Positions 18,545 to 40,050 of a stretch of DNA of 64,000 nt are shown here, in pieces (the first letter of the stretch is position 1; the number at the start of each line of letters is the position of its first letter). The notes under the pieces were generated by a model. The model was not told the origin of the DNA. It was given only the letters and a program-made list of their open reading frames with translations, and did not search any database. The stretch is from Tabrizicola sp. TH137 (GTDB taxonomy: Bacteria > Pseudomonadota > Alphaproteobacteria > Rhodobacterales > Rhodobacteraceae), in NCBI RefSeq assembly GCF_002855575.1, contig NZ_PKRQ01000008.1:62001-126000 (forward strand), given 5' to 3'. A program made the position numbers and the translations under genes.

Positions 18545-19375
18545 TCAGGTGATGCGCCTGATGCTTTCGGTGATCTCGTCCCAGTCGAAGACGCGCTTCC
18601 AATCGTCCTTCATCAGGACCGGGATTCCGAACTGGATCGCCTTGTTGCAGGCATCGGAGAAGACGCCGACCCGTTCTTCGAAGATCACGGCACCGAGGAT
18701 GTTCATGTGCCCAAGAAGGAAATCGCGGGCACAGTCATGGCTGACGCCGGAGCGGCGGACGCATTCGTCCATCGCCTCTCGCATGATCGTCATGAGGGAA
18801 GCGGCGACCGTTTCCGAAAGCCCAGGTTCAAGCATCGCCATCTGCGCCACCGTCACCTCATGGCTGCGCATCACCGGGGCGTAGATCGCCCGCGCGATCG
18901 CCTCGCCCATCGCATAATGTTCCCTCGGGCCTTGCATGAGGGCGCAGACGATGGCCTGTTTTGCAGCAATGCCGCCGAAATGATCGGCCTTCGCTTCGGG
19001 CGTGACCTCGTCGTTGTAGATGGGAGGATGGCAGGGATGGGTGATGAAATAAGTGATGTCGGCGCGTTCCGGCAGATGCCCTGCATAGGGCGCGGCCGCA
19101 TCAAGGATGACGACAATCGTCCCGGGCCTGAGCTTTGGCACAATTTCCGCAGCGACACGCCCGATATGGGTATCCGGCACGGCAAGGATTACGGCATCCG
19201 CGTCTGCGATGGCCATTTCCGGCGCGACGCAGTCCACACCATAGGCTTCCTTCACCCGTTGCTGGCCTGCGGCGCTGACCTCGACATGCGATACGACGAA
19301 ATCCGTCTTCGCAAGGTTTGTGGAAAGCCGCATCCCCATCTTTCCACCCGCTCCGAACAGGGCGATCCTTGTCAT
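18545..19375 (-). CDS. NAD-dependent dehydrogenase, PGDH_C family (D-apionate oxidoisomerase-like)
   Basis: This 276-residue protein has an N-terminal Rossmann fold (IALFGAGGKMGMRLS) and a C-terminal domain of the phosphogluconate-dehydrogenase C-like family. Conserved blocks include VILAVPDTHIG, ITHPCHPP and MNILGAVIFEE. Relatives include ApnO, which acts on D-apionate. It is divergent from a four-carbon acid sugar kinase family gene, the partner expected for ApnO (OiaK). The ATG at 19375 is preceded by AAGGAG with good spacing; a longer reading frame to 19423 lacks one. The specific substrate is inferred from the pairing only. Confidence 0.6.
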   Translation of the reverse strand: MTRIALFGAGGKMGMRLSTNLAKTDFVVSHVEVSAAGQQRVKEAYGVDCVAPEMAIADADAVILAVPDTHIGRVAAEIVPKLRPGTIVVILDAAAPYAGHLPERADITYFITHPCHPPIYNDEVTPEAKADHFGGIAAKQAIVCALMQGPREHYAMGEAIARAIYAPVMRSHEVTVAQMAMLEPGLSETVAASLMTIMREAMDECVRRSGVSHDCARDFLLGHMNILGAVIFEERVGVFSDACNKAIQFGIPVLMKDDWKRVFDWDEITESIRRIT

Positions 19376-19472
19376 TTGGGCTTTCTCCTTCGACGGGTTG
19401 CAGGCCAACTGGTATGATCTCATAATAACCCCCGGTCAAGGCGAGCCGCGGGAATGGCCGGAAGGGAACGGC

Positions 19473-20843
19473 ATGACGCAATCGGACGGGTCCGAACCCT
19501 GGGTCGGCTGGCTGGGCGATGACTTCACCGGGGCGGCGGCCGTCATGGAAGTGCTGGCCTTTGCCGGGGTATCGGCCGTTCTTTTCACCGAAATCCCGTC
19601 TCGCGGATTGGCAGAGCGATTTGCAGGCGCGCGGGGCATCGGCCTTGCCACCACGGCACGAAGCCAACCCCCGGACGTCATGCAAGAGACGCTTGCCCCG
19701 GCCTTTGCATGGCTTGCGGCGCTGTCGCCGACGATCCTGCATTACAAGCTTTGTTCAACTTTCGATTCAGCGCCGCATCTTGGCAGCATCGGCCGCGCTA
19801 TCGAGATCGGACTGAACCACCGTCAGGCCCGCGCCGTGCCTCTGGTGACTGCGGCACCGCAGATGCGGCGCTACCAGGCCTTCGGCCATCTCTTTGCGGG
19901 CACAACTGACGGGGTCTTCCGGCTGGATCGTCACCCTGTGATGGCCCGCCATCCGGCCACGCCGATGCGGGAGTCTGATCTGCTGCACCATCTGGCGGAG
20001 CAGACCGACCTGCCCTCTGCATTGATCGACCTGCCGACGCTTTTGGCAGGGTGTGAGCCGACCCTTGCCGCGCGGCTGGCTGAAGGTGCGCGGATTCTTT
20101 CGCTCGACATGCTGGATGACAGATCCGAGGCGGCGGTGGGCCGCCTGCTCTGGCAAAATCGCGGCGACTTTGGTCTCGTCGCGGGGAGTCAGGGCGTGGA
20201 ATATGCGCTGGTTCGTCACTGGCAGGAGACCGGCCTGATCCCGCCCGCGCCGCCGCCGCCCTCTGCCGGTGCGGTGGAGCGGATCGCGGCGGTTTCAGGC
20301 TCTGTCTCGCTGATCACGGCGTCTCAGATCGCCTGGGCAGGGGCGCATGGGTTCGCTCTCATTCCTTTCGAGGCCTGTGCTGCCTGTGCAGCGCCCGATG
20401 CGCTGGCCGATGCGGAGGTGCAGGCGATTACCGCCGCCCTGACGGCCGCGGCGGCCGGGCAAAGCCCGCTTATCTACACCGCACTCGGCCCGGACGACCC
20501 TGCCGTTGCCCGGTTCGGGGCTGCGCTTACGGCGACCTGCCTTGCGCCGGATCGGGTTCATGCGCGGCTTGGCGCGGCGCTTGGGCGTGTGCTGGCGGCA
20601 ACGCTCGCGCAGGGGCGGCTGCGACGCGCCGTCATCTCGGGTGGCGACACGTCCAGCCATGCCTTGCGCGAACTGGGATTGCAGGCCCTGACGGCGCTGG
20701 CTCCAACCATACCCGGTGCCGCGCTTTGCAAGGGCCATGGCCAAGGCCCGCACGACGGGTTGGAGATCGCGCTGAAAGGCGGGCAGATGGGAACGGAGGA
20801 TTACTTCGGCTGGGTCCGTGCCGGGGGTGGACCCAGAACCTGA
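19473..20843 (+). CDS. Four-carbon acid sugar kinase family protein (DUF1537; OiaK-like)
   Basis: This 456-residue kinase belongs to the family formerly called DUF1537, which phosphorylates threonate, erythronate, 3-oxo-isoapionate and similar acids with ATP. The N-terminal domain begins WLGDDFTGAAAVMEVL; a KLCSTFDSAPHLGSIG block contacts substrate; the C-terminal nucleotide domain ends SGGDTSSHALRELG and KGGQMGTEDYF. GAAGGGAA precedes the ATG at 19473. It is divergent from the ApnO-like dehydrogenase, which suggests a branched or four-carbon acid sugar. No RuBisCO-like decarboxylase, aldolase or transcarboxylase of the known apionate routes is in the window. Confidence 0.78.
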   Translation: MTQSDGSEPWVGWLGDDFTGAAAVMEVLAFAGVSAVLFTEIPSRGLAERFAGARGIGLATTARSQPPDVMQETLAPAFAWLAALSPTILHYKLCSTFDSAPHLGSIGRAIEIGLNHRQARAVPLVTAAPQMRRYQAFGHLFAGTTDGVFRLDRHPVMARHPATPMRESDLLHHLAEQTDLPSALIDLPTLLAGCEPTLAARLAEGARILSLDMLDDRSEAAVGRLLWQNRGDFGLVAGSQGVEYALVRHWQETGLIPPAPPPPSAGAVERIAAVSGSVSLITASQIAWAGAHGFALIPFEACAACAAPDALADAEVQAITAALTAAAAGQSPLIYTALGPDDPAVARFGAALTATCLAPDRVHARLGAALGRVLAATLAQGRLRRAVISGGDTSSHALRELGLQALTALAPTIPGAALCKGHGQGPHDGLEIALKGGQMGTEDYFGWVRAGGGPRT

Positions 20844-27419: not shown

Positions 27420-28379
27420 TCAGGCCAAGAGGCTTAGCGCCGTCTGTTCATCCGTGATCAGGGTGGTCGGGGAAACCGTCTTCATTGCAGCCATCAAGGC
27501 GATGCGCTTTTCCTTGCCGCCCGAGATGAGAACCCGTTCCGGGCAGCGGCGAAGGTCGTTCAGATCGGCAGAGATCACCCTCTCGTTCACCTCGTGGCTG
27601 ACCGGCGTCCCATCTTCGGAAATGAAATTGTAGAGGACATCGCCAACCGCCCCAGCCTCGATCAGCGAGCGGCGGTCCGCCTCGGTGATATAGCCGGTGC
27701 GATAGCTGGTGGTGAGCGTCGAGATGCCACCGACGGAGAGCAAGGCGACATCCAGGTTGCTTGCCATTTCGAAGATCGCGGAGAGACCGCAGCGTTCGAG
27801 CAGCGCATGTTTGGTTTCGGGACTGTCTACCACAGCCGGGGCGGGGATCAGGAACCCTTCGCCCTGGAAGAGTTCGGCGAATTGCCAGGCGAATTCCGCA
27901 GGGTTGAAGCGGCGGGCGGCCGCAATCCCGCCGAGCAGAGAGACCACACGAAAGTTTTCGAGCGTTTCGCCACTGATGAAGGGTAGTGAATTGTAGAGGG
28001 TACGACCCCAACCCACCCCGACTGTCATGCCGGATTTCATCAGCCCCGAAACGAAGCTTCCGGCCGCAGCGGCGATGACGCGGACCGGATCTTCCTCGGG
28101 ATCGGCGAAGGGGGCGACGATCACGCGGTTGATGCCATAGGCCGTTTCGATGCGCCGCTCCAGATCAGTGAGTTCCGCGAGCGGCGCAGAGACGGTGACG
28201 CGCACCTCATTTCGGCGGCGGGCGTCGGCGAGGAGGCGCACCACCATGACCCGGTTTATCCCGAGCTGCTGGGCGATGTCGTTCTGGGTGATCCCCTCGA
28301 CATGATACAGCCAGACCGCGCGGGCGCGCAGCCTGTCTGCCTCACTTTGCGCAGCGGTGGCCTGCCGTCCAGCCTGCAT
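27420..28379 (-). CDS. SorC-family sugar-phosphate responsive regulator
   Basis: This 319-residue regulator has an N-terminal HTH (GITQNDIAQQLGINRVMVVRLLADARR) and a C-terminal SorC sugar-binding domain (VGVGWGRTLY, VSLLGGIAAARRF, DVALLSVGGI). Family members sense phosphorylated sugars or sugar lactones and control the neighbouring catabolic operon. It lies 39 bp downstream of the E2 gene, the last gene of the leftward unit, and would bind the repeats at 33122-33241. Its ligand could be a phosphorylated pathway intermediate. Confidence 0.85.
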   Translation of the reverse strand: MQAGRQATAAQSEADRLRARAVWLYHVEGITQNDIAQQLGINRVMVVRLLADARRRNEVRVTVSAPLAELTDLERRIETAYGINRVIVAPFADPEEDPVRVIAAAAGSFVSGLMKSGMTVGVGWGRTLYNSLPFISGETLENFRVVSLLGGIAAARRFNPAEFAWQFAELFQGEGFLIPAPAVVDSPETKHALLERCGLSAIFEMASNLDVALLSVGGISTLTTSYRTGYITEADRRSLIEAGAVGDVLYNFISEDGTPVSHEVNERVISADLNDLRRCPERVLISGGKEKRIALMAAMKTVSPTTLITDEQTALSLLA

Positions 28380-28418
28380 GAGCCTTCCTCGGTCTTGGCC
28401 CTGTCATCCGCTTACCGC

Positions 28419-29738
28419 CTACATCAAGAGATGGCGCACAAGGATACGAGCGACACGGTCAGGGCATTCCAGCTGCGGAACATGACCCGCATCCGCCAAA
28501 AGGTGAAGAGCGAAATCGCCGGTGATCGACAGGGCCTGTCGCCAAGGGAGGATATGGTCGCTGCGCCCCCAGAGGATCGCGGTCGGGATTTCCAGCCGGG
28601 ACAGGGCCGGACGCAGATCGAAGGGCTGGACACCGTCGGGGAAGAGGATTTCGGCCAGCTCGGCCTGGAAGGCGCGCAGGGCCGGATCAGCCCGCAGACG
28701 CATTGCCGCGCGGGCATAGTCGTCGCTGATCCCGTCGGGCGTTGCGGTCAGACGGCGAAGCCAGGGTGCCAGGCTTTCGGCGCGGGTCGCACGGGTGATG
28801 CCGGTCAGCGCCTGCGCGTCGATTTCGGGGCCAAGTCCTGCGGGCGCGATGAGCGCGAGCGACCGGATGCGCCGGGCGCGGATGTCGGCAGCGGCAAGAG
28901 CCAGAGCACCGCCGAGCGAATGACCCAGAAGATCGACCTTGTCATGGCCGCGCGTTACGTCGTCCAAAGCCTCGACCACCATGCGGGCCAGTTCGGCGAA
29001 ACTGCCGAGCCTGCGGCGCGGGGAACGGCCGTGGCCAGGCAGGTCGATACGGATCAGCGGCCGATCGGCCCCAAGTGCCTTTTCGAGCGGGGCCCAGCTT
29101 TGGCTGTCGGCCGTGAAGCCATGGATCAGGACCAGCGGAACACCGGTCCCCTTGCGGCTGGAGACATGGAGGGGGCCGGGCTGTGCCGACCAGGCCCCTG
29201 CCCCGGGCGATGCAAGGGCCGGAGCCTCGACGCGGTGGGCCAGAAAGGCAGCGACATCGTCGCGCTGGATACGCCCGCGCGGGCCGGTGCCGGGAACCTC
29301 TTCAAGGGTGATGCCGGAGGCACGGGCCGCAGCGCGGGCGGCAGGGGTGGCGCGCAGGCCCGGTGCGACGGCGGGATCGGCCTGAGGAATGGCAGCCGGA
29401 TGCGCCGTTGCTGTGGGCACCGGTTCCACTGTCTTTGCGACCGGCGCTTCGGGTTCGGGTGCTGCGGTCGTCTGGATCGGCGTTTCTGCGACGGTTTCGC
29501 CTTCGGCATAGATCAGGGCAACGACGGTGCCGACCGCGACCATGTCACCCGGCTGGGCCGTGACGGACAGGAGGCGACCGGAGGCGGGGGATTCCACCTC
29601 CATCGCAGCCTTGTCCGTTTCGATGTCGAACAGCGGCGCGCCCTTTGCGACAGTCTCGCCCTCGGCGACATGCCACGTGGCAAGCTTGCCATGGGACATG
29701 TCCATGTCCACCTTGGGCAGGATCACTTCGACCGGCAT
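28419..29738 (-). CDS. Acetoin-dehydrogenase-type E2: lipoyl domain plus alpha/beta hydrolase
   Basis: This 439-residue protein has three parts. The lipoyl domain covers residues 1-80 with the lipoylated Lys43 in TDKAAMEVES. A linker and E3-binding domain (about 127-165, TPAARAAARASGITLEEVPGTG) follow. Residues 195-439 form an alpha/beta hydrolase with nucleophile Ser274 in LGHSLGG, an Asp in WGRSDHILP and a His in DAGHVPQLE. This fold replaces the usual acyltransferase domain and is the hallmark of AcoC of the acetoin dehydrogenase complex. It accepts the acetyl group cut from an alpha-ketol and passes it to CoA. No E3 gene is in the window. Confidence 0.85.
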   Translation of the reverse strand: MPVEVILPKVDMDMSHGKLATWHVAEGETVAKGAPLFDIETDKAAMEVESPASGRLLSVTAQPGDMVAVGTVVALIYAEGETVAETPIQTTAAPEPEAPVAKTVEPVPTATAHPAAIPQADPAVAPGLRATPAARAAARASGITLEEVPGTGPRGRIQRDDVAAFLAHRVEAPALASPGAGAWSAQPGPLHVSSRKGTGVPLVLIHGFTADSQSWAPLEKALGADRPLIRIDLPGHGRSPRRRLGSFAELARMVVEALDDVTRGHDKVDLLGHSLGGALALAAADIRARRIRSLALIAPAGLGPEIDAQALTGITRATRAESLAPWLRRLTATPDGISDDYARAAMRLRADPALRAFQAELAEILFPDGVQPFDLRPALSRLEIPTAILWGRSDHILPWRQALSITGDFALHLLADAGHVPQLECPDRVARILVRHLLM

Positions 29739-29741
29739 GGA

Positions 29742-30752
29742 TCAGACCTCGCGCCGGGCGAGACGGCGGGCGGCGGCTTCTATGGTTTCGACCTGCGGCA
29801 CGGCGGCGCGTTCCAGATCGGGGTTGTAAGGCACAGGTGCATCGGCTGCACCAAGACGGAGGATCGGCGCATCGAGATGGTCGAAGGCATCACTTTCGGC
29901 AACCATCGCGCTGATCTCGGCCCCAACGCCGAAGGCCTTTACCCCTTCATAGACCACCATCAGCCGCCCGGTCTTGCGCACCGAGGCAAGGATCGTCTCT
30001 GCGTCGATCGGACGGATGGAGCGCAGGTCGATCACCTCGGCGCTGATCCCTTCGGCGGCGAGCCGTTCGGCGGCTTCGAGCGCACGGTGCACCATGATGG
30101 AACCGGCAACGATGGTCAGATCCGTACCCGACCGGCGCACCAGGGCCTTTCCGATGGGGGTAAGGTAGCTGCCTTCGGGAACGTGACCCTTCATCTTGTA
30201 GAGCAGCTTGTGCTCGAAGATCATCACAGGGTCGGGATCGGCCAGCGCGGAGAGAAGCATGCCCTTGGCATCTTCCGGCGTCGCCGGCTGGAGGACCTTG
30301 AGCCCCGGAACATGGCCGAACCAGGCCTCGATGGATTGGGAATGCTGCGCGGCCGCCCCGGTGCCGGACCCGGCAGGAAGGCGGAAGACGACGGGGACCG
30401 AAGCCTCGCCCCCGAGCATGTAGCGCAGCTTGGCGGCCTGATTGACGATCTGCTCCATCGCCAACATCGCGAAATCCGAGAACTGGAATTCGTAGATCGG
30501 CTTGAGCCCGGTCAGCGCCGCCCCGACCGCCACGCCGGCCCCCCCCAGTTCCGAGATCGGCGTATCCATCACGCGATCCGGACCGAAGCGATCCACAAGG
30601 TCCAGCGTGACCTGGAAGGCGCCGCCATAGACACCGATATCTTCGCCCATGAGGATGACGGTGGGATCGTTTTCCATGGCGATGGCCATCGCCTCGCGGA
30701 TGGCTTCGGAATAGGACAGGACCCGGAGGCCGGTCTCGGTCATGGCGTTCAT
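29742..30752 (-). CDS. Acetoin/2-oxoacid dehydrogenase E1 component, beta subunit
   Basis: This 336-residue thiamine-diphosphate enzyme subunit has the transketolase pyrimidine-binding domain ([30 protein letters not shown]) with the catalytic Glu, and the C-terminal transketolase domain ([16 protein letters not shown]). It forms the alpha2beta2 E1 that breaks the C-C bond and loads the acetyl unit on lipoate. The ATG at 30752 lies one base after the alpha stop codon; a longer frame would overlap alpha. Sequence alone does not separate acetoin from pyruvate specificity; the AcoC-type E2 favours acetoin-like ketols. Confidence 0.86.
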
Positions 30753-30753
30753 G

Positions 30754-31764
30754 TCAGTTCTCCGCGTAGACATAGCGGGTCACGTCGCCAATCGCGGGGG
30801 CGGGACTGGATTTCGCGAAGGCGATGCCTGCCTCGACCTCGGCCATTGCCTCGGCGGCGACGGCATCGGCTGCCGCTTCGTCGAGGATGCCATGGGCGAT
30901 CAGTTCGGAACGGAAACGCGCGATGGGATCGCGGGTCATCCATTCCTCGATCTCTTCCTTTGTCCGATACCGGTTGCGATCAGACTTGGAATGGCCCCGC
31001 CAGCGGTAGGTGACGTTTTCCACGAGGCTGGGCCCGTCACCGGCGCGGGCACGGACGATGGCAGCATGAACCGCCTCGGCCACGGCAGAGAAGTCGTTTC
31101 CATCCACAGTGATGCCGGGCATTGAATAGGCGCTGGCCCGGTCGGCGATGTGGCGCACCGCAGTCGAGCGCGTCACGGCGGTGGACATGCCGTAGCCGTT
31201 GTTTTCACAAACGAAGATGACCGGGAGTTTCCAGACGGAGGCCATGTTCAGCGCTTCGTGGAAGGCACCTTCATTATTGGCGCCATCGCCAAAGAAGCAG
31301 ACCGTGACATCGTCGCGGCCAAGCCGTTTCGCAGTCAGGGCCGCGCCCACGGCGATGGGCAGGCCCCCACCCACAATGCCATTGGCACCCAGATTGCCGG
31401 TGCGGACATCAGCGATATGCATGGAGCCGCCGCGCCCGTGGCAGTACCCCGTCTCCTTGCCGAAGAATTCGGCGAACATCCGGCCCACATCGGCCCCCTT
31501 CGCGATGCAATGGCCATGCCCGCGATGGGTTGAGGTGATCTTGTCCGCATCCGTCAATTCCATGCAGGTGGCCATCGCGCTGGCCTCCTGTCCGATGGAG
31601 AGGTGCATCGTCCCGTGGATCAGGCCGCGCATATAGCTGTCTTCGGCCCCTTCCTCGAAGCGGCGGATCAGATACATGCGGCGCAGCGCTTCGCGCAGTT
31701 GAGCGGGAGCATAGGTCCGGATGGCGAAAGGCCGGTTGTCGGTGGCGGGGGCGTCCGATGTCAT
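30754..31764 (-). CDS. Acetoin/2-oxoacid dehydrogenase E1 component, alpha subunit
   Basis: This 336-residue subunit carries the ThDP-binding motif [15 protein letters not shown] beginning at residue 159 and ending near ENN. It also has [10 protein letters not shown], the activation-loop region [19 protein letters not shown], and [11 protein letters not shown], typical of AcoA and PdhA. The start overlaps the stop of the DRL gene by one base, so the dehydrogenase complex and the DRL enzyme are expressed together. This coupling is the main reason to place both in one pathway. Confidence 0.86.
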
Positions 31765-33086
31765 CAGGCCAGCCCCAGCATCTTGTCCTGCCGCGCCCGG
31801 AGCGCGGCGATCCGGCTGTCGGCGGGCAGGGCCGTGTTGGCCGTCGTGATCAACTCACCCTTGCGGATCGGCGCTGTGACCCGCCCTCCGGCCAGCAGGC
31901 CACAGGGGATGGCTGCGGCCTGGCGGGCCTCTTCCACCGTCATGATCCAGGCTCGGTAGCAGTATTCACCGATCTGGTCGAGCGTATCGCCCACCGCGAT
32001 GTCTTTCTTGGCAACGGCGCAGACCTCGGCCACGGGGCGATCCAGCGGCACCATGTCGGCCTTGCCGTAAAGGACGGCGCGCGCGCAGGTGAGCGGCACT
32101 TCCAGCGAGGTCAGGTGATAGGGGCGGAAGAAGGTGAAGTAGGGCCCCTTGCCCATCTTCAGATCCTCCATCCGCTCCCAGATGCGGGGATGATCCATCT
32201 CGGCCACGACAAAGACGCCGGGCGCGACCCCTTTGCCGATGGTGTAGTCAACCCGACCTTCACCGGAAGACAGCACGCCCCCAGCAGATTCCGGGATCAG
32301 CACGCGGTTCAGCTCGTCGCGCGCGGCGGCCGGTCCATGCATCCCCGGCTTGTCGGGGATGAGACCGGTGGCGTTGGCGATGGCTGCCATCTCGACCATG
32401 GTCTTCGAACCGTCCACGAATTCCACCAGCATCCGGGGGTTCATGTGGCGGCGGATCGCTTCTTCGGTATAGGCGTCCGGCGTGGCATCTATGTTGAGAG
32501 GGTTGTTCTTGCCCTTTCCGGCCGAGACGATTCGATGGCCCATGGCCGAGACAAACTCGATCAGTTCCATACAGGAGGACGGTTCGTCGCCCGCACCCAG
32601 GGAATAGACGACGCCAAGCCGTTCGGCCTCGGACCGAAGATAGGCGCCGATGGTGACATCGGCCTCGACATTCATCATCACAAGATGCTTGCCGCGTTCC
32701 ATCGCGCGCAGGCCGATCTCGGCACCCACGGCAGGGACGCCGGTCGCATCGACAACCACGTCGATCAGCCCCGCGTCGAGGAGGGCATCGACATTGTCGG
32801 TAACGGCCACCTTGCCCTTCTCCATCGCGGCGGATGCCGCATCGGCGGTGGAGACCTCCTGCACGCGGTCCCTGTTCCCATAGGCGATTTCCACGGACTT
32901 TGCCGCTGCGCCCGGCTTCAACTCGCTGATGGCGCCGATCTCGATTCCCGTCATATGGGCGACCCGGCTGACGATATCGGTGCCCATTTCACCCGCGCCG
33001 ACCAGCCCGATCCGAATCGGTTTCCCGGTTGCTGCCCTGGCGGCGAGGTCTCGGGCCAGTCCCGTAAGGGCGACATTGGTGGGCAT
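31764..33086 (-). CDS. DRL-type (DXR-like) reductoisomerase, homoserine dehydrogenase-like with SAF domain
   Basis: This 440-residue protein has an N-terminal NAD(P)-binding domain (GAGEMG at residues 30-35), a central domain with SLGAGDEPSSCMELIEFV and AGKGKNNPLN, and a C-terminal SAF domain (about 350-420, AVAKKDIAVGDTLDQIG). This architecture is that of DRL from Brucella abortus, which interconverts 1-deoxy-D-xylulose 5-phosphate and 2-C-methyl-D-erythritol 4-phosphate and is unrelated in sequence to DXR. Many bacteria with DRL-like genes also have DXR, so a catabolic use is possible. It is the first gene of the leftward operon. Family placement is from memory of the conserved blocks. Confidence 0.72.
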   Translation of the reverse strand: MPTNVALTGLARDLAARAATGKPIRIGLVGAGEMGTDIVSRVAHMTGIEIGAISELKPGAAAKSVEIAYGNRDRVQEVSTADAASAAMEKGKVAVTDNVDALLDAGLIDVVVDATGVPAVGAEIGLRAMERGKHLVMMNVEADVTIGAYLRSEAERLGVVYSLGAGDEPSSCMELIEFVSAMGHRIVSAGKGKNNPLNIDATPDAYTEEAIRRHMNPRMLVEFVDGSKTMVEMAAIANATGLIPDKPGMHGPAAARDELNRVLIPESAGGVLSSGEGRVDYTIGKGVAPGVFVVAEMDHPRIWERMEDLKMGKGPYFTFFRPYHLTSLEVPLTCARAVLYGKADMVPLDRPVAEVCAVAKKDIAVGDTLDQIGEYCYRAWIMTVEEARQAAAIPCGLLAGGRVTAPIRKGELITTANTALPADSRIAALRARQDKMLGLA

Positions 33087-33121
33087 GGGCGATCTCCTGC
33101 GAGCGTTTCAGAGACCGTAGA

Positions 33122-33154
33122 TGAACTATTGTTTTTCTGTCAATCAAGAGTTCA
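33122..33154. promoter_or_regulatory. Operator-like inverted repeat, leftward promoter region
   Basis: TGAACT at 33122-33127 and AGTTCA at 33149-33154 form an inverted repeat with a 21-base AT-rich spacer. TTGACA on the minus strand (33143-33138) lies between the arms and could be the -35 box for the DRL/acetoin-type operon. A related repeat lies at 33208-33241, so one regulator could control both directions. Confidence 0.5.
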
Positions 33155-33189
33155 CGCCGCACCGCAGCAAATCCACGACGAAATTGTCG

Positions 33190-33241
33190 TTGACAGGTCG
33201 CCGGACCTGAACACACTATGGGTTTGCGAAACGAAAGTTCA
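33190..33241 (+). promoter_or_regulatory. Promoter and second operator-like repeat for the ABC transporter operon
   Basis: TTGACA at 33190-33195 and CACTAT at 33214-33219 are spaced 18 bases and fit a sigma-70 promoter reading to the right. TGAACA at 33208-33213 and AGTTCA at 33236-33241 flank the -10 box with a 22-base spacer. AGTTCACGC occurs here and at 33149-33157 as a 9-bp direct repeat. Binding at this place would block the promoter. Confidence 0.5.
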
Positions 33242-33349
33242 CGCAACGCTGTGAGCGCTGTCAATGCGTCCTGAGGAGACCGCAGAGACGATCTGTTTGC
33301 ACCGCGCGCGGCGGCACGTTCAAGTATCGCCAAAGGGAGGACGATAAGA

Positions 33350-34903
33350 ATGACCATACGTTTGGGGGGAATGTCCCGCCGCTCGTTCCTGCGTACGGGG
33401 GCCGCCTTTGGCGTCGCCACCGGCGCAAGCGGGCTTACGCTGCCGGCGCTGGCGCAAGAGGGCCTGCCCGATATCCAGGCCACGCTCGACACGATCACCG
33501 TGGAGAAATACGTCCGCGAGGATTACCGCAAGCTTTACAACATGTCGAACGAGCCGCTTTGGGACCCGGCGAAGGACTGGATCCGTACCGTCGACTGGGA
33601 GGCCGTGCGCAGCCAGCTTGCCGGAACCACAGTGCGCTTTGCCATCGGTGCGGCTGACCAGGAATCGGCCGCCGAAGGCCTGAAGCCGTTCGAGGCCCTG
33701 TCGGGCATCAAGGTCGAGCTTGTTCCGATCCCGGATGACAGCATCTATGACAAGGCGATCTCGGAGTTCATCTCGGGCAACGCTTCCTTCGACGCGTTGC
33801 AGTTCTTCTCGGCCTGGCTGGGCGATTTCGCCGCTCCGGGCTTCCTTGCGCCGCTGGACGAATATGCGGCCAAGTGGAACCTGCCGCTGGACGACTTCTA
33901 CGATACCTACCGGCTGAACTATGGCTATTTCAACGGCCAGCTCGTCGGTATCCCCTTCGACTGCGACATCCAGATGGTCCATCTGCGCAAGTCGATCATG
34001 GAGCCGATCCTTGGCGGGCCGATCGACCTTGCCACCTCTGTGCCGACCTATGACGACCTGATCCGCATCACCGCCGAAGCGAACAAGCTGGGCGGTGGCG
34101 TGGCGGGCATCGGCCTGCTGGGTGCGCGCGGTTTCTGGTCCACTTACACCTGGGAGCACATCGCCGCGCAGGCGGGCATGCAGCTCTTCGATGACAAGTG
34201 GAACCCGACGCTGAACACCGATGCCGGCATGAAGGGCATGGAGATCCTTCTGGCGCTGGCCCAGAACGCGATCGAAGGCATCGCGGGTGCTGGCTGGGGC
34301 GAGAACCGCGCCGCCTGGCTGGGCGGTCAGGTCGCCGCGAACATCAGCTGGCAGGACAGCGGCACGCAGGCGATGCGTCCCGACCAGAGCCAGATCGTGG
34401 ACGACTTCGTCACGATCTATGAACCGCGCATCACCGGCGGCGTCTTTGCCCCGCCGAATATCGCGGGTTCGACCTCGGTGGTGACGGCGACCAGCCAGAA
34501 CCCCGAAGGCGCCTTCCTGATGCTGGCCTTCCTGACCACCTCGTCGATCATGGCGATGAACGAGGCGAATGCGAACGGCGTGGCACCGGGCTATCGGTCT
34601 GTTCTTTCGAATGAACGACTGCGCGCCGTGTCGCAGCCCATGAAGGTCTGGGCGGACAGCCTTGAGCATGCATGGTGCTCGCCGCGTCTGCCGGGGATGT
34701 TCGAGATGGAACAGGCCCTTGGCAACGAGATCAACCGGGCCATCACCGGGCAGATCACGGCGAAGGAAGCGCTGGACAACGGTCAGGCCGCCTGGAAGGC
34801 CATCATGGAGAAGAACGGGTTCAAGGACGGCGCGGGACCGGTCGACTATGCGGCGGTGGCCCCCGGGCTTTACGTCGGTGGCGGCAAGCCCCTGCCCTTC
34901 TGA
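33350..34903 (+). CDS. Tat-exported sugar-type ABC transporter substrate-binding protein
   Basis: This 517-residue protein belongs to the family 1 extracellular solute-binding proteins used for sugars and polyols. The twin-arginine signal MSRRSFLRTGAAFG with cleavage after ALA is clear. The mature protein has WQDSGTQAMRP and a C-terminal helical region usual for the family, though it is longer than MalE types (about 400). GGGAGG lies ten bases before the ATG. It heads the operon binding protein, two permeases, ATPase, kinase. Confidence 0.85.
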   Translation: MTIRLGGMSRRSFLRTGAAFGVATGASGLTLPALAQEGLPDIQATLDTITVEKYVREDYRKLYNMSNEPLWDPAKDWIRTVDWEAVRSQLAGTTVRFAIGAADQESAAEGLKPFEALSGIKVELVPIPDDSIYDKAISEFISGNASFDALQFFSAWLGDFAAPGFLAPLDEYAAKWNLPLDDFYDTYRLNYGYFNGQLVGIPFDCDIQMVHLRKSIMEPILGGPIDLATSVPTYDDLIRITAEANKLGGGVAGIGLLGARGFWSTYTWEHIAAQAGMQLFDDKWNPTLNTDAGMKGMEILLALAQNAIEGIAGAGWGENRAAWLGGQVAANISWQDSGTQAMRPDQSQIVDDFVTIYEPRITGGVFAPPNIAGSTSVVTATSQNPEGAFLMLAFLTTSSIMAMNEANANGVAPGYRSVLSNERLRAVSQPMKVWADSLEHAWCSPRLPGMFEMEQALGNEINRAITGQITAKEALDNGQAAWKAIMEKNGFKDGAGPVDYAAVAPGLYVGGGKPLPF

Positions 34904-34908
34904 TCCTG

Positions 34909-35856
34909 ATGAGAACCGATGCTCCCTCGGTTCCGGCAGAGGGGGTGGCGCAAGCCACCCCCAACCGCCGGAAGGCACCACCACGGCGCCGCAGTCCGGC
35001 CTTGCGCAAGGCCTTTCCCTACCTGCTGGTCGCACCCGCGGTGATCTACCTTCTGGCGATCACCCTCTACCCCGGCATATTCGCAATCTACCAAAGCCTT
35101 TTCGTCGTCCGCTTCGTCAACTGGACCTGGACGGGACTTGGCAACTATCAGGCAATCCTTCAGGACCGCGAGTTCTGGGCCGCCCTGGGCAATACGGCGA
35201 TCATCGGGGGCATCTCGCTGACGCTTCAGACCTGCATCGCCCTCGCACTGGCATATTTCGCCTATCGCGACCCGTTCATCCGCGGCTGGCGCATTCTTTA
35301 TCTGATGCCGATGCTCTTCATGCCTTCGGCGGTGGCCTTTCTCTGGAAACTGGCCTTCAACGATGGCCGCGTGATTTCGGACATGCTGATCGGGCTCGGT
35401 CTCGTCGAAGCGAATGTGGACTGGCTTGGCAATGTCTGGCTTGCCCGGCTGACCCTGATCGTGGCCGATGTCTGGCAATGGACGCCCTTCCTTTTCATCA
35501 TCTTCGTCGCCGCCTTGCAGGGGCAGGATCAGGAGATCGAAGAGGCCGCACGCCTTGATGGTGCAAGCTGGCCGTCGATTTTCTGGAATATTTCGCTGCC
35601 GATGATGCGGCCGGTGATCGTGGTGGCCGTCACACTGCGCGGCATCGACATCACCACCATGTTCACCAACGTCTTCGTGATGACCCAGGGCTCGCCCGGC
35701 GGAGCGACGGAGACGATGAGCTATTTCATCTACCGTCAGGGCTTTCGCATGTTCAACTTCGGCTATGCCTCGGCGGCGTCGGTGCTGATGCTGATCATGA
35801 CGATCATCATTGCACAGACCGTGGTGAAACGCGCCTTCCATTCGGGAAAGAAATAG
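34909..35856 (+). CDS. Sugar ABC transporter permease 1 (MalF/UgpA type)
   Basis: This 315-residue permease has a basic N-terminal tail of about 35 residues, then six membrane segments beginning FPYLLVAPAVIYLLAITLYPG. The EAA coupling loop is EIEEAARLDGASWPSIFWNISLPMMRP, near residue 215. It starts five bases after the binding protein stop. It forms the channel with the permease encoded directly downstream without any spacer. Confidence 0.87.
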   Translation: MRTDAPSVPAEGVAQATPNRRKAPPRRRSPALRKAFPYLLVAPAVIYLLAITLYPGIFAIYQSLFVVRFVNWTWTGLGNYQAILQDREFWAALGNTAIIGGISLTLQTCIALALAYFAYRDPFIRGWRILYLMPMLFMPSAVAFLWKLAFNDGRVISDMLIGLGLVEANVDWLGNVWLARLTLIVADVWQWTPFLFIIFVAALQGQDQEIEEAARLDGASWPSIFWNISLPMMRPVIVVAVTLRGIDITTMFTNVFVMTQGSPGGATETMSYFIYRQGFRMFNFGYASAASVLMLIMTIIIAQTVVKRAFHSGKK

Positions 35857-36699
35857 ATGGCCAAGCCTCGCAAGACCCGCGGTGAAAGCCTCGTGCTGCG
35901 CTATGCCGTGCTGGGCACCTGGGCGCTGATCTGCCTGTTGCCGATCCTGTGGTTCCTTTCCATCGGGTTCCGGCCGCGGACAGAGGTCATCACCCCGGAG
36001 CCGATCTATTTCCCCACCTTCTCGCTGGACGCCTGGCATCTGCTGGTCAGCGACTGGCCCATCGCGCAATACCTGCGCAACTCCATCATCGCGGTGGCGG
36101 GATCGGTGGTGATCGACCTCATCCTGGCCATTCCTGCGGCCTATGCCCTGTCGCGCTATGAGTTCAAGGGGCGCGAGGATATCGGGTTCTATATCCTGTC
36201 CACCCGGATGATGGCGCCCGCCATCGTGGCCGTGCCGATCTTCTTCCTGTTCAAGACGGTGGGGCTGCTGGATTCCGTCTGGGCGCTGATGCTGATCTAT
36301 GCCGCCATCAACCTTAGCCTCGTGACCTGGATCATCCGCAGCTACATGCTGGATATCCCGAAGGAACTTGAGGATGCGGCGCGCACCGATGGGGCGAGCG
36401 ACCTGCGCATCCTGTGGGAGATCATCATTCCCGCCTGCCTTCCCGGCATCATCACGGCGGCGGTGATCGCGGCCATCTTCGCGATCAACGAGTTCCTGTT
36501 CACGCTGCTCATCGCCTCCACGGCGAATGCCTACACCATGTCTGTCGCGCTGGCGAATTTCACCGGCGGTTCCGACGGCATCATCTACAACGCCATCGCC
36601 CTCGTCTCCTTCATCGCCTTCGTGCCGATCCTGATCCTCGTGATCCTGATCCAGAAGCACCTGTCGCGCGGTCTGACGATGGGCGCAGTCAAAGGTTGA
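35857..36699 (+). CDS. Sugar ABC transporter permease 2 (MalG/UgpE type)
   Basis: This 280-residue permease has six membrane segments and the EAA loop KELEDAARTDGASDLRILWEIIIPACLPG at about residues 168-196. The first base of the start codon follows directly after the stop codon of permease 1, which suggests strict coupling. The C-terminal end HLSRGLTMGAVKG is typical of the MalG group. Confidence 0.88.
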   Translation: MAKPRKTRGESLVLRYAVLGTWALICLLPILWFLSIGFRPRTEVITPEPIYFPTFSLDAWHLLVSDWPIAQYLRNSIIAVAGSVVIDLILAIPAAYALSRYEFKGREDIGFYILSTRMMAPAIVAVPIFFLFKTVGLLDSVWALMLIYAAINLSLVTWIIRSYMLDIPKELEDAARTDGASDLRILWEIIIPACLPGIITAAVIAAIFAINEFLFTLLIASTANAYTMSVALANFTGGSDGIIYNAIALVSFIAFVPILILVILIQKHLSRGLTMGAVKG

Positions 36700-36702
36700 T
36701 CC

Positions 36703-37749
36703 ATGGCCTCGATCCAACTCAAGAACATCGTCAAACGCTATGGCGCCTTCGTCGGCGTGCAGAACATGACGCTGGACATCGCGGATGAGGAATTCCTTGT
36801 CCTGCTTGGTCCTTCGGGCTGTGGCAAGACCACGACCATGCGGATGATCGCCGGTCTGGAAGAGCCGACGGATGGCGAGATCATCATCGGCGGCGAGGTG
36901 GTGAACGAGATCGACGCCCGCGACCGGGACGTGGCGATGGTGTTTCAGGGCTATGCCCTTTATCCCAACATGTCGATCTACGAGAATATCCGCTTTCCGC
37001 TTCGGATGCGCGGCATACCGGCCTCGGAACATGATGCCCGGATCCGCAAGGCGGCCGAGATGGTGGAACTGGGCAGTTTTCTTGACCGCAAGCCGGGGGC
37101 ACTGTCGGGTGGGCAGCGGCAGCGCGCGGCGCTGGCACGGGCAGTTGTGCGCCAGCCGCAGGTTTTCCTGATGGATGAACCCCTGTCCAACCTGGATGCA
37201 AAGCTTCGGCAGTCGATGCGGGTGCAGATCAAGCACATGCAGCGGCAACTGAAGGTGACGACCGTCTATGTGACCCATGACCAGATCGAAGCGATGACGC
37301 TGGCCGACCGGATCGTGATCATGAACAAAGGGGCGATCCAGCAGGTCGGCACGCCGGACGAGATCTATTCCGACCCGGCAAACACCTTCGTTGCGGGTTT
37401 CATCGGCAGCCCGCCCATGAATCTGATTGAAGGCAACGCGCAGAACGGGCGGTTCACCGCGCCGGGGGTATCGGTGCCCTGCCCCGCGCATGTCAGGGGG
37501 AGTGTGACGCTTGGCATCCGCCCGGAAGACTGCCGCGTCGGCGGTGACCATGTCCAGGGGCAGGTCTATGGCGTGGAACCCACGGGGGACGTGACCTATC
37601 TGACCGTTCTGGCGGGAACGAAGAAGATCGAGGTGAAGGCTGCGCGCGACTATCGTTCGGAGATCGACGTTCCCATTGGCATCGCCTTCGATCCGGCCCA
37701 CCTCTATTTCTTCGATGAGTCGGGCCAGCGCATCCGGGGGGCTGAATGA
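36703..37749 (+). CDS. Sugar ABC transporter ATP-binding protein (UgpC/MalK type)
   Basis: This 348-residue ATPase has Walker A GPSGCGKTT at about residues 38-46, signature LSGGQRQR, Walker B VFLMDEPLSNLDAKLR and VYVTHDQIEAMTLAD. Residues 235-348 form the TOBE/OB regulatory domain, with LGIRPEDCRV. Length is close to UgpC. It ends with a four-base overlap with the kinase gene. A shared-ATPase role for other importers is possible but the gene order points to a dedicated subunit. Confidence 0.88.
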   Translation: MASIQLKNIVKRYGAFVGVQNMTLDIADEEFLVLLGPSGCGKTTTMRMIAGLEEPTDGEIIIGGEVVNEIDARDRDVAMVFQGYALYPNMSIYENIRFPLRMRGIPASEHDARIRKAAEMVELGSFLDRKPGALSGGQRQRAALARAVVRQPQVFLMDEPLSNLDAKLRQSMRVQIKHMQRQLKVTTVYVTHDQIEAMTLADRIVIMNKGAIQQVGTPDEIYSDPANTFVAGFIGSPPMNLIEGNAQNGRFTAPGVSVPCPAHVRGSVTLGIRPEDCRVGGDHVQGQVYGVEPTGDVTYLTVLAGTKKIEVKAARDYRSEIDVPIGIAFDPAHLYFFDESGQRIRGAE

Positions 37750-38726
37750 GCGCACGTTTCGATTACACCTCGATGGGCTTCATCACCTTTGACGCCCTCT
37801 GCCGTCCGGTGACCCAGATCCCGCCGGGGGGAGATACCTATTTCGTCGAAGACTTCACGCTGGCCGTTTCAGGTGCCGCAGGCAGCGCGGTGATCGTGGC
37901 GGCAAAGCACGGCCTCAAGTCCCGCGCCGTGGGCGGGGTCGGGCATGACGACATGGGCGATTGGGTGCTGATGAAGCTTGCCAGCTTTGGCATCGATACC
38001 ACGATGATGGCCCGTTGCGACGGCTTTGCCACCTCTTCTTCCATCGTCACCACCCGCCCCGACGGGGCCCGACCGGCCCTGCACAAGCGCGGCGCAACGG
38101 ACGGGTTCTATATCTCCGACGACCAGATTGATGATCTTCTGGATACCCGCATCCTGCATGTGGGGGGCGTGGGCCTGATGAACCGAATGGATCAGGGCCG
38201 CACCGAAGAGATCATGGCCGAGGCGCGGCGCAGGGGCGTGATCACCACGCTGGATGTCTTTGCCTCGACCCCGGATGACCTGCCGAAGGTTGCGCGACTG
38301 CTGCCGCATACCGACTATTTCCTGCCGTCCGAAGAAGAGGCGCGTGCGCTTTCGGGCCTGACAGAGAACCGAGATCTGGCGCAGTTCCTGATCGACCGCG
38401 GGGCGGGATGCGTGATCCTCACGCTCGGCGCGGATGGCGCTTATTGTCGGCGCAGCGACGGCTTGGAATTCGCCACCCCCGCCTTTGCGGTGGACGTGAA
38501 ATGCACCTGCGGCTGCGGTGACTGTTTCAACGGCGGCTTTGCGACCGGGCTGATCAAGGGCATGTCGCTGGAAGAGTCGGTGCAGTTGGCACAGGCCTCT
38601 TCGGCGCAGAACGCGACGGGACTGGGCAGCCAGGCCGGCGTAAGGGACTTTGCCGGGACGCTGGATTTCATCAGGACGACGGCGCTGCGCGCACCGAAGG
38701 ACGGCTTGGTAACGGGGGCGCGCTAG
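37746..38726 (+). CDS. PfkB-family sugar kinase
   Basis: This 326-residue kinase has the ribokinase fold. The N-terminal substrate region includes DFTLAVSGAAGSAVIVAAKHG, and the C-terminal PfkB motif is VDVKCTCGCGDCFNGGF, with the catalytic Asp259 and anion hole GCGD. The usual DTxGAGD is changed to DVKCTCGCGD, with three Cys, which is unusual. The substrate is likely what the upstream importer brings in; phosphorylation traps it in the cell. The start overlaps the ATPase gene by four bases. Confidence 0.82.
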   Translation: MSARFDYTSMGFITFDALCRPVTQIPPGGDTYFVEDFTLAVSGAAGSAVIVAAKHGLKSRAVGGVGHDDMGDWVLMKLASFGIDTTMMARCDGFATSSSIVTTRPDGARPALHKRGATDGFYISDDQIDDLLDTRILHVGGVGLMNRMDQGRTEEIMAEARRRGVITTLDVFASTPDDLPKVARLLPHTDYFLPSEEEARALSGLTENRDLAQFLIDRGAGCVILTLGADGAYCRRSDGLEFATPAFAVDVKCTCGCGDCFNGGFATGLIKGMSLEESVQLAQASSAQNATGLGSQAGVRDFAGTLDFIRTTALRAPKDGLVTGAR

Positions 38727-38756: not shown

Positions 38757-39467
38757 GTGCCATTGCCTTCCTTCATCCAGCCCGATTCGATGCCGCTGCG
38801 CGAAGCCTTGCGCGGCCTTCGCTTCCTGCTGCGTCGGGGCGGCGAGACGCTGGCCGATACGATTTCGGTCGACGCGCTTCCGAAACCGGCCTCGGAGATC
38901 GCTTCGGTCGTGATGACGGAGGTCGGCGGGATCGTGCGGTCCGTGGATACCGTTGCGTCGAGCGCGGCGAAGAAGATTCTGGGTGGGCAGGAAAATCCGA
39001 CAGCAGCGCTGGATGACCTGATCCATCACGATGCTGCCGAAGCCGAGTTTGCGCAGGCGATCTATGTCGCGCTGAGTGCCGTGCTGCGCCGGTTCGGCAC
39101 GACCAGTTTCTTCGTGAGCGAGATGTCGGCCCGGGCAACTTTCGCCGCCTGGCGGCGGGAAACCGGTGAAGCAGATCCGGAACAGCGGGCAGCGGAACTC
39201 ACGCTGCGCTTGCTGGACGCGCGGGTGGTGCGCGGGGTTTCCGTGGACAAGGCCCAGCTTGCGCCGACGGGCGCTTTGGACGGGGCTGCGGTCTTTGCGG
39301 TGCTGCTGTGGCTGCAATCCTCGCGGTCGGATGCCGAGAACGAGGCGGCGCTGGATGCGGCGGCCGACATCGCCCTTGCCAAGGCGGATGAAATCGCCAG
39401 GGCCTTGGCGGCGCGTCGGCTGGACAGCCTTGCCGCGCTTTACCGGAAGTACGTCGATCATGTCTAA
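38757..39467 (+). CDS. Unknown protein 1 of a coupled pair
   Basis: This 236-residue protein is not recognised. It has no signal peptide. Two low-hydrophobicity helical regions are seen, with IASVVMTEVGGIVRSVDTVASSAAKKILG around residues 48-76 and an Ala-rich C-terminal helix. It starts at a GTG with AGGAG eight bases upstream. It overlaps the next gene by eight bases, so the two products likely act together. Codon use is like its neighbours. Confidence 0.6.
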   Translation: MPLPSFIQPDSMPLREALRGLRFLLRRGGETLADTISVDALPKPASEIASVVMTEVGGIVRSVDTVASSAAKKILGGQENPTAALDDLIHHDAAEAEFAQAIYVALSAVLRRFGTTSFFVSEMSARATFAAWRRETGEADPEQRAAELTLRLLDARVVRGVSVDKAQLAPTGALDGAAVFAVLLWLQSSRSDAENEAALDAAADIALAKADEIARALAARRLDSLAALYRKYVDHV

Positions 39468-40050
39468 GGTTCGGCTGCATCAGGATGCCCTGCCCCCCAC
39501 GAACGAACCGCTGCGGATCGCGGTGCGGCGTCTTCGCTGGTTCAAGGCGGCCTTCCTGCGGCATGCCGAGACGGTAAGTCAGGAGCTGGGCTGCAAGCTG
39601 GAGGTGGACGAGGCCAAGCTTGCCGGCTGCTTCATGCGCTGGCTCGACGCGATCGAGGTGCAGCGCCCTGCGGACAAGTCGCAGCGGCGTGCCTTCTTTG
39701 AATTCGCGGCCGCATTGATGATGCGCGAGCTGACAACGGACATGCCGTTGAAGGCCGAGGGCGTGCCGGTTCTGGCGCAGCCGGGATCGGCGGCGGCATT
39801 CTGGCCCGAAGGCTATTGCTGCACGATCTTCTGCCTGTCGGTCCATGCCGCCGCAACGGCGCAGGAGTTCCATACAGAGACGACGATTGACCCGGCAATC
39901 GACGATCTGCGGCACTGGTGGAGTTTCCGGGAAAACACGATGCAGGACGCGCGTTTCTCGGCGGGGTTCCTTCAGATGCTGATGGGAAGTCAGCCGAACT
40001 GGGTGATGCCGGATGTGTTTTCCGCGCAAACGAAGGACGACAGGGCCTGA
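39460..40050 (+). CDS. Unknown protein 2 of a coupled pair
   Basis: This 196-residue protein is not recognised. It is rich in Trp and has a Cys/His block, EGYCCTIFCLSVHAAATAQEFH at about residues 114-135, that could bind a metal or cofactor. The C-terminal part contains RHWWSFRENTMQDARFSAGFLQMLMG. It starts inside the end of the upstream unknown gene. It is followed by 130 bases with no gene that I can support, then the convergent flippase gene. Confidence 0.6.
   Translation: MSKVRLHQDALPPTNEPLRIAVRRLRWFKAAFLRHAETVSQELGCKLEVDEAKLAGCFMRWLDAIEVQRPADKSQRRAFFEFAAALMMRELTTDMPLKAEGVPVLAQPGSAAAFWPEGYCCTIFCLSVHAAATAQEFHTETTIDPAIDDLRHWWSFRENTMQDARFSAGFLQMLMGSQPNWVMPDVFSAQTKDDRA

Follow-up and report, generated by a model that had tools for sequence, protein, structure and literature searches.

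What purpose does a second type of 1-deoxy-D-xylulose 5-phosphate (DXP) reductoisomerase serve when it sits beside a sugar importer, a sugar kinase and an acetoin-dehydrogenase-type complex? The question is raised by a 64,000-nucleotide stretch of Tabrizicola sp. TH137 (contig NZ_PKRQ01000008.1, positions 62,001 to 126,000; hereafter the window), in which DXR-II, also called DRL, the NAD(P)-dependent enzyme that interconverts DXP and 2-C-methyl-D-erythritol 4-phosphate (MEP), lies in such a cluster. The same genome holds DXR-I on another contig and two DXS matches over the cut-off. An earlier note on this DNA had read the cluster as a candidate catabolic pathway for 2-C-methyl-D-erythritol (ME) or a 1-deoxy ketose. 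The computational follow-up supports the catabolic reading without proving it: DXR-II is linked to the dehydrogenase genes, unlike uptake modules join the same core, the operons share an operator-like site, carriers as a rule have another reductoisomerase and keep DXS, linked and unlinked DXR-II copies can be near-identical, and the E1 alpha proteins, with a member from Bacillota, form one group with its own sequence signature. Taken together, these findings make it likely that the two operons jointly serve the catabolism of ME or a close relative, which would be degraded via MEP and DXP to acetyl-CoA and glyceraldehyde 3-phosphate (G3P).

Gene content, linkage and shared sites of the DXR-II cluster

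Two divergent operons occupy window positions 27420-38726. Pfam and NCBIfam model searches, by which the open reading frames (ORFs) of the window were assigned, recovered every gene that the earlier note had placed in a leftward unit and in a divergent sugar importer-kinase unit. The leftward operon (33086 to 27420) begins with DXR-II, proposed here to convert MEP to DXP (31764-33086, minus strand; DRL_cat, PF21135, 5.5e-66, 222 bits against a cut-off of 27). This is followed on the same strand by E1 alpha of an acetoin-dehydrogenase-type thiamine diphosphate (ThDP) complex, proposed to cleave DXP (30754-31764; E1_dh, 1.7e-91), by E1 beta (29742-30773; NCBIfam PRK09212, 401.6 bits against a cut-off of 321, and 311 bits to 1ni4, the E1 beta of pyruvate dehydrogenase, PDH), and by an AcoC-type E2 with lipoyl, E3-binding and alpha/beta hydrolase domains (28419-29738; NCBIfam PRK14875, 342 bits, cut-off 307). 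The final gene of the run encodes a SorC-family regulator with a sugar-binding domain (27420-28379; PF04198, Sugar-bind, 9.9e-55), whose HTH_23 match (2e-4) stays below the Pfam cut-off. The rightward operon (33350 to 38726, plus strand) comprises an extracellular solute-binding protein (33350-34903; SBP_bac_1, 4.9e-27), a MalF/UgpA-like permease with an ambiguous start position (34930-35856; Pfam/NCBIfam), a MalG-like permease (35857-36699; Pfam/NCBIfam), a MalK/UgpC-like ATPase (36703-37749; NCBIfam PRK11650, 436 bits, cut-off 432) and a PfkB-family kinase, the proposed methylerythritol 4-kinase (37746-38726; PfkB, 4.5e-40, 138 bits, cut-off 25.8). None of the NCBIfam specificity-class models reaches its cut-off for the kinase, and NCBIfam models give no family for DXR-II or the solute-binding protein.

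The association of DXR-II with E1 is conserved. Scanning GTDB genomes with a DXR-II alignment gave 591 relatives, of which the best 80 loci, and hence the closest DXR-II only, were analysed; E1 alpha is present in 68 of these 80, and in 67 it starts no more than 400 bp downstream of DXR-II. Had DRL enzymes of this clade never been linked to the dehydrogenase genes elsewhere, the earlier reading would have lost its footing; the outcome was the opposite. E1 was found in 0/20 loci of distant DRL relatives (about 32-36% identity; flanks to about 6 kb, two ended by the contig) and in 0/26 distant-relative loci read with about 1.5 kb on either side, these controls being termed DLO by their identity and by residues in 4 rows only. 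A chance neighbourhood was set aside on the comparison of 68/80 closest with 0/20 distant-relative loci. One record kept in the counts, titled Bacillus subtilis SK6B4 (L081), is probably mislabelled, its DXR-II falling among Brucellaceae. In a phylum-wide sample, DXR-II matched at E 1e-80 or better in 16 of 398 genomes (24 matches), two of which (G478 and G492) each carry one E1-linked and one unlinked copy. DXR-II is an accessory gene: the sample includes 20 further genomes from the family to which the window belongs, and none has a match at this level.

Three unlike uptake and phosphorylation modules accompany the DXR-II/E1 core. Specifically, the ABC importer with PfkB recurs on Sinorhizobium (S.) meliloti pRM41A and an Agrobacterium plasmid, whose clusters additionally hold lpdA (E3) and lipA, and 11/80 GTDB loci fall in this class; a glucitol-type phosphotransferase system (PTS) with GutM and enzyme I is found in Terrirubrum and Pseudoroseomonas, with PTS genes in 20/80 GTDB loci; and one Priestia locus has a major facilitator superfamily (MFS) transporter and an FGGY kinase, its E1/E2/E3 genes lying about 6 kb upstream, with two SorC genes and the transporter in between. 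PfkB is combined with an RbsA-like ATPase match in 8/80 loci, a loose class with matches down to 24% identity. Convergence of such unlike routes on one core is expected for a polyol that needs a phosphate ester before DXR-II can act. A glucitol-type PTS indicates a polyol rather than a ketose, and this, together with the need for DXR-II, points to methylerythritol as the imported compound. In seven loci (L047, L048, L050, L053, L056, L059 and L068), genes for a GlpD-like FAD dehydrogenase, a zinc alcohol dehydrogenase, a second SorC and RbsA-like ABC proteins adjoin the DXR-II cluster and possibly form a companion polyol pathway.

The operator-like repeats that had been noticed between the operons correspond to two palindromes of 33-34 bp, TGAAC-N23-GTTCA (33122-33154), which is conserved upstream of DXR-II, and TGAAC-N24-GTTCA (33208-33241), found by pattern scan. 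No other site in the window matches TGAAC-N21-25-GTTCA exactly; 0.18 would be expected, and two such sites are reached in 4 of 100 shuffles. The whole genome (4.66 Mb) has 7 exact matches to TGAAC-N22-24-GTTCA, these 2 among them. Across loci, a site with at most one mismatch lies upstream of DXR-II in 61/74 E1-linked loci (3.2 expected) and in 0/12 unlinked loci (0.7 expected), and an exact site in 17/74 and 0/12, respectively, counting 400 bp upstream, dropping loci with less than 250 bp and taking expected numbers from single-base shuffles. With 350 bp upstream (less than 200 bp dropped), the site precedes genes for the solute-binding protein in 13/16, PfkB in 8/27, GutM in 5/18 and SorC in 7/57 cases, compared with 48/625 unannotated ORFs of the same loci; some of these sites lie in an intergenic region common with DXR-II. 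The pattern suggests that SorC may bind the TGAAC-N-GTTCA sites and thereby control both operons. Scans for sigma-70 promoters and for terminators between 33050 and 33400 gave no match.

DXR-II: redundancy and substrate

Is DXR-II needed for isoprenoid synthesis in these genomes? Fifty of the 80 loci were named for genome search (all 12 unlinked and 38 linked, isolates preferred), and 49 genomes, all but that of L067, were searched. DXR-I is present in 16/49, all 16 of them E1-linked, and in 0/11 genomes with an unlinked locus. Among the 38 E1-linked genomes, 16 have DXR-I, 18 have a second DXR-II and 4 have neither. Because 34/38 thus hold DXR-I or an unlinked DXR-II, the E1-linked DXR-II is as a rule an extra enzyme. 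The extra copies number 19 in 18 genomes, and E1 lies within 6 kb in 0/19 (one stretch being short); one second copy with an internal TAG (G387:C25) was left out of this reading. DXS exceeds its cut-off in 50/50 genomes, which implies that E1 is not a DXS replacement, and the reading of E1 as a DXS substitute was rejected on this ground.

The linked enzyme appears to handle the same substrates as its isoprenoid counterpart. The window DXR-II aligns with PDB 3UPY over residues 1-439, its whole length, at 668 bits; we take 3UPY and 3UPL to be Brucella DRL. E1-linked and unlinked DXR-II are interspersed in a tree of 65 hand-chosen rows, where well-supported branches require the label to change no fewer than 9 times (linked) or 8 times (unlinked), and in one DXR-I-less genome (G390) the linked copy matches the unlinked one at 432/436 positions (99.1% identity). 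Unlinked DXR-II in DXR-I-less genomes very probably makes MEP for isoprenoids, and linked copies should therefore handle the same DXP/MEP pair. A DRL structure of this kind is mentioned in the excerpts of PMC3847144 and PMC3424233 on which we draw throughout, and the former give T229, H250 and R320 as the residues separating DXR-II from DLO1/DLO2. These three (R320 being R321 here) are kept in 32/32 linked, 26/26 unlinked and 3/3 Bacillota rows without E1, and in 0/4 distant-relative rows. Additionally, K191, K193, T229, E174, F178, H250 and R321 are conserved in 32/32 linked rows, and nine of ten DXR-II positions tested are kept in all of them, the tenth, V352, in 30/32. Elsewhere, G121 is alanine in 4/26 unlinked rows, E174 differs in 2/3 Bacillota rows, and Y323 is variable in some rows. 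Linked and unlinked DXR-II NEVERTHELESS probably both act on DXP/MEP. The main text of PMC3847144 discusses DXR-II redundancy as gene dosage and gene loss, and contains no word beginning "catabol".

Proposed specificity of the E1/E2 complex

All 25 DXR-II-linked E1 alpha proteins in the tree, including a partial Priestia row, form one group irrespective of their uptake module (support 94/86, just under the tool's starred level; 94% of bootstrap trees). Separate groups are formed by AcoA (three references and one unlabelled row; 100/99), by PdhA (100/100) and by three rows from a sister operon (100/100). The reference L178 was treated as AcoA from gene order, not annotation; the long-branch rows L182 and L183 were left out, and two long-branch joins were flagged. 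The STHRGHGH motif of the linked E1 alpha is common to AcoA, its counterpart in PDH being SYRDHG or YRAHG. Directly after a conserved GHS, a loop carries K/R260 and an invariant R263-N264-R265 in 69/69 E1 alpha rows (the window, 63 GTDB and 5 plasmid loci); at this place the three AcoA references read GHFEGD, PDH reads GHSMSDPAK and Priestia GHSKSDAKK. These basic residues, at the entrance of the E1 active site, may bind the phosphate of DXP.

There is precedent for the chemistry in the opposite direction. According to excerpts of PMC3424233, purified PDH can join pyruvate and glyceraldehyde to 1-deoxyxylulose, and E. coli without DXS regains a supply of DXP through point mutations in AceE; for the formation of 1-deoxyketoses by PDH and by acetoin dehydrogenase, these excerpts refer to a paper of 1986. 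By analogy, DXP cleavage by E1 would be the reverse of this PDH/AceE carboligation.

The sister operon, which lacks DXR-II, occurs in Rhizobium, Tritonibacter, S. meliloti and Nitratireductor (L176, L246, L247, L248). It encodes SorC, an Rbs-type ABC importer, E1/E2, an AhpD-like protein and an FGGY kinase, after which L246-L248 have SDR genes. Such a gene content would suit a pathway that breaks down a free 1-deoxyketose or deoxypolyol.

Proposed route, alternatives and known systems

We propose the following sequence of events. The ABC importer would take in ME or a close relative, and the PfkB kinase would convert ME to MEP, which DXR-II would oxidise and rearrange back to DXP with NAD(P)+. 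E1 would then split DXP, a methyl-ketol, between C2 and C3, in reversal of the DXS ligation; the two-carbon unit would pass via the lipoyl arm of E2 to CoA, and the products, acetyl-CoA and G3P, would join central metabolism. Both operons would be governed through the TGAAC-N-GTTCA sites by SorC, whose signal is probably a phosphorylated intermediate.

Several observations weigh against this route. The DXR reaction favours MEP, so that conversion of MEP to DXP is uphill and the catabolic direction would rely on pull from the acetyl-CoA-forming E1/E2 step. No E3 gene was seen within the cluster, and the PF00198 acyltransferase domain was not found by Pfam in the window E2. PDH likewise has a lysine at the R265 position, so position 265 alone is not diagnostic, and the AceE precedent comes from a different E1 architecture. 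The 80 loci are partly from related genera and their counts are not independent; 12 of them have no E1 (L061, L062, L067, L079, L081, L096, L105, L110, L111, L114, L116 and L119), and 22 hold E1 yet fit no transporter class, several of these ending at contig ends or carrying other ABC genes. Among the 24 matches of the phylum-wide sample, 12 regions were read, 4 E1-linked and 8 not. In 4 of the 38 linked genomes (G407, G408, G420 and G429) no other reductoisomerase was found. Finally, Listeria, Enterococcus and Ligilactobacillus combine DXR-II with a glucitol PTS and SorC, and no E1 turned up in the vicinity; the pairing of DXR-II with a polyol PTS therefore extends beyond Alphaproteobacteria and does not always include E1. 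On a Ligilactobacillus salivarius plasmid (L205, 8004-15575), DXR-II, the glucitol PTS and a SorC-like sugar-binding regulator are accompanied by fructose-6-phosphate aldolase and transketolase, which, speculatively, might cleave DXP by another route.

The strongest competitor holds that the imported compound is 1-deoxy-D-xylulose (DX): the kinase would make DXP, E1/E2 would cleave it, and DXR-II would form a side branch for isoprenoids or for DXP/MEP buffering. The existence of the sister operon, with SorC, Rbs-type ABC, E1/E2 and FGGY kinase in the absence of DXR-II, speaks for it, as does phosphorylation of DX by the xylB kinase (excerpts of PMC3424233). However, DXR-II lies directly before E1 in 67/80 loci although DX breakdown would not need it, and a glucitol-type PTS, from what is known of the family, suggests a polyol and not a ketose; we regard this explanation as unlikely. 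A less probable alternative, to which we give little credence, is that the reductoisomerase uses another branched polyol phosphate or a sugar acid, with E1/E2 cleaving a different ketol or 1-deoxyketose phosphate. D-Apionate is reportedly a substrate for an enzyme of such kind. The wider family does appear to have other substrates, since four tested DLO relatives failed to complement a DXR mutant (excerpts of PMC3847144), whereas the near-complete conservation of the ten DXR-II positions in linked rows, and the near-identity of linked copies to ones apparently serving isoprenoids in DXR-I-less genomes, argue for the DXP/MEP pair.

Still more improbable is a role in isoprenoid supply, in which E1 would make DXP and DXR-II would make MEP, so that the MEP pathway would gain an alternative or a strengthened entry. 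Unlinked DXR-II very likely does serve isoprenoids, with DXR-I in none of the 11 genomes concerned, and mutant AceE shows that an E1 can support DXP formation (excerpts of PMC3424233); but DXS is present in all 50 genomes, and biosynthesis from pyruvate and G3P would not call for an importer or PTS, a kinase, a lipoyl E2 or the shared SorC-type sites. Plain utilisation of acetoin or 2,3-butanediol, with DXR-II an accidental passenger, was set aside and can be given almost no weight: the E2 exceeds the NCBIfam acetoin E2 cut-off and E1 alpha has the AcoA pocket motif, but E1 alpha falls outside the AcoA group, the DXR-II order is kept in 67/80 loci, a sugar importer and kinase would be pointless for acetoin, and the neighbours differ from acetoin-type loci, no acoR-, acoX- or acetoin-reductase-like gene being annotated in the linked loci from plasmids, Terrirubrum, Pseudoroseomonas and Priestia, in contrast to L175 (sigma-54 regulator and NAD-kinase-like gene, which we read as acoR and acoX) and L177 (acetoin reductase).

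Beyond the window, the case for methylerythritol catabolism suggests a broader picture, which we hold with less confidence but still favour. DXR-II would be largely a catabolic enzyme of methylerythritol use that has shifted repeatedly between catabolic operons and isoprenoid duty, and the reverse DXS/DXR route, with at least three uptake modules and one SorC-type site, would be common across several orders of Alphaproteobacteria, while Bacillota would have a version with the PTS alone or with aldolase and transketolase. This picture would explain the coexistence of DXR-II with DXR-I. Plants contain methylerythritol both in free form and bound in glycosides, and isoprene in the air gives rise to methyltetrols. 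If the proposal is correct, it describes a new food pathway that closes the carbon cycle of the MEP route, explains the DXR-II/DXR-I redundancy left open in the main text of PMC3847144, defines a new E1/E2 specificity for 1-deoxyketose phosphates, and offers a reverse DXS reaction for engineering as well as a means of testing DXR-type enzymes through growth. Among the open-access papers listed, no title or abstract start describes the catabolism of methylerythritol, MEP or DXP, or a way of consuming methyltetrols, subscription journals and preprints lying mostly outside this search.

Downstream of the kinase, the window holds two orphan genes on the plus strand (38757-39467 and 39460-40050), both with no family match. 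The second belongs to a family (c5) that is kept beside DXR-II clusters of both ABC and PTS type, in 29/68 E1-linked and 0/12 unlinked GTDB loci, and that has no NCBIfam match and no Pfam match above cut-off. W27, F28, W61, W115-P116-E117-G118, C125, W153-W154 and E158-N159 are invariant in its 29-row alignment, and in some loci the gene adjoins an HAD phosphatase gene. About 6.6 kb from the cluster, at 19320-20843 (plus strand), lies a gene for an OiaK-like kinase, whose score for the 3-oxo-isoapionate kinase family is 445 bits (cut-off 700).

How does the cluster compare with known systems? D-Apionate oxidoisomerase pathways also use oxidoisomerisation of a branched-chain sugar derivative for carbon, by another enzyme on another substrate, and are not known to involve an acetyl-CoA-forming ThDP complex. 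The AcoABC system shares the E1 alpha/E1 beta/E2 architecture, the STHRGHGH motif and the alpha/beta-hydrolase E2; the window cluster differs from it in its own E1 alpha group, a KSDRNR loop in place of FEGD, a SorC-type regulator, DXR-II and sugar uptake, and no acoR, acoX or acetoin reductase is among its Pfam and NCBIfam families. With the DXR-II/DRL family of the Brucella abortus type it shares full-length similarity to 3UPY/3UPL and the diagnostic residues; the known role of that family is isoprenoid biosynthesis, whereas here the enzyme lies among genes for uptake, a kinase and E1/E2 in a DXR-I-bearing genome. Operons for polyols, of the glucitol-PTS or erythritol type, resemble it in combining an importer or PTS with a kinase, a SorC-type regulator and intracellular oxidation of a phosphorylated polyol. 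Unlike those systems, which use an aldolase or a simple dehydrogenase, the oxidation proposed here would take the form of a skeletal rearrangement by DXR-II, followed by ThDP- and lipoate-dependent cleavage.

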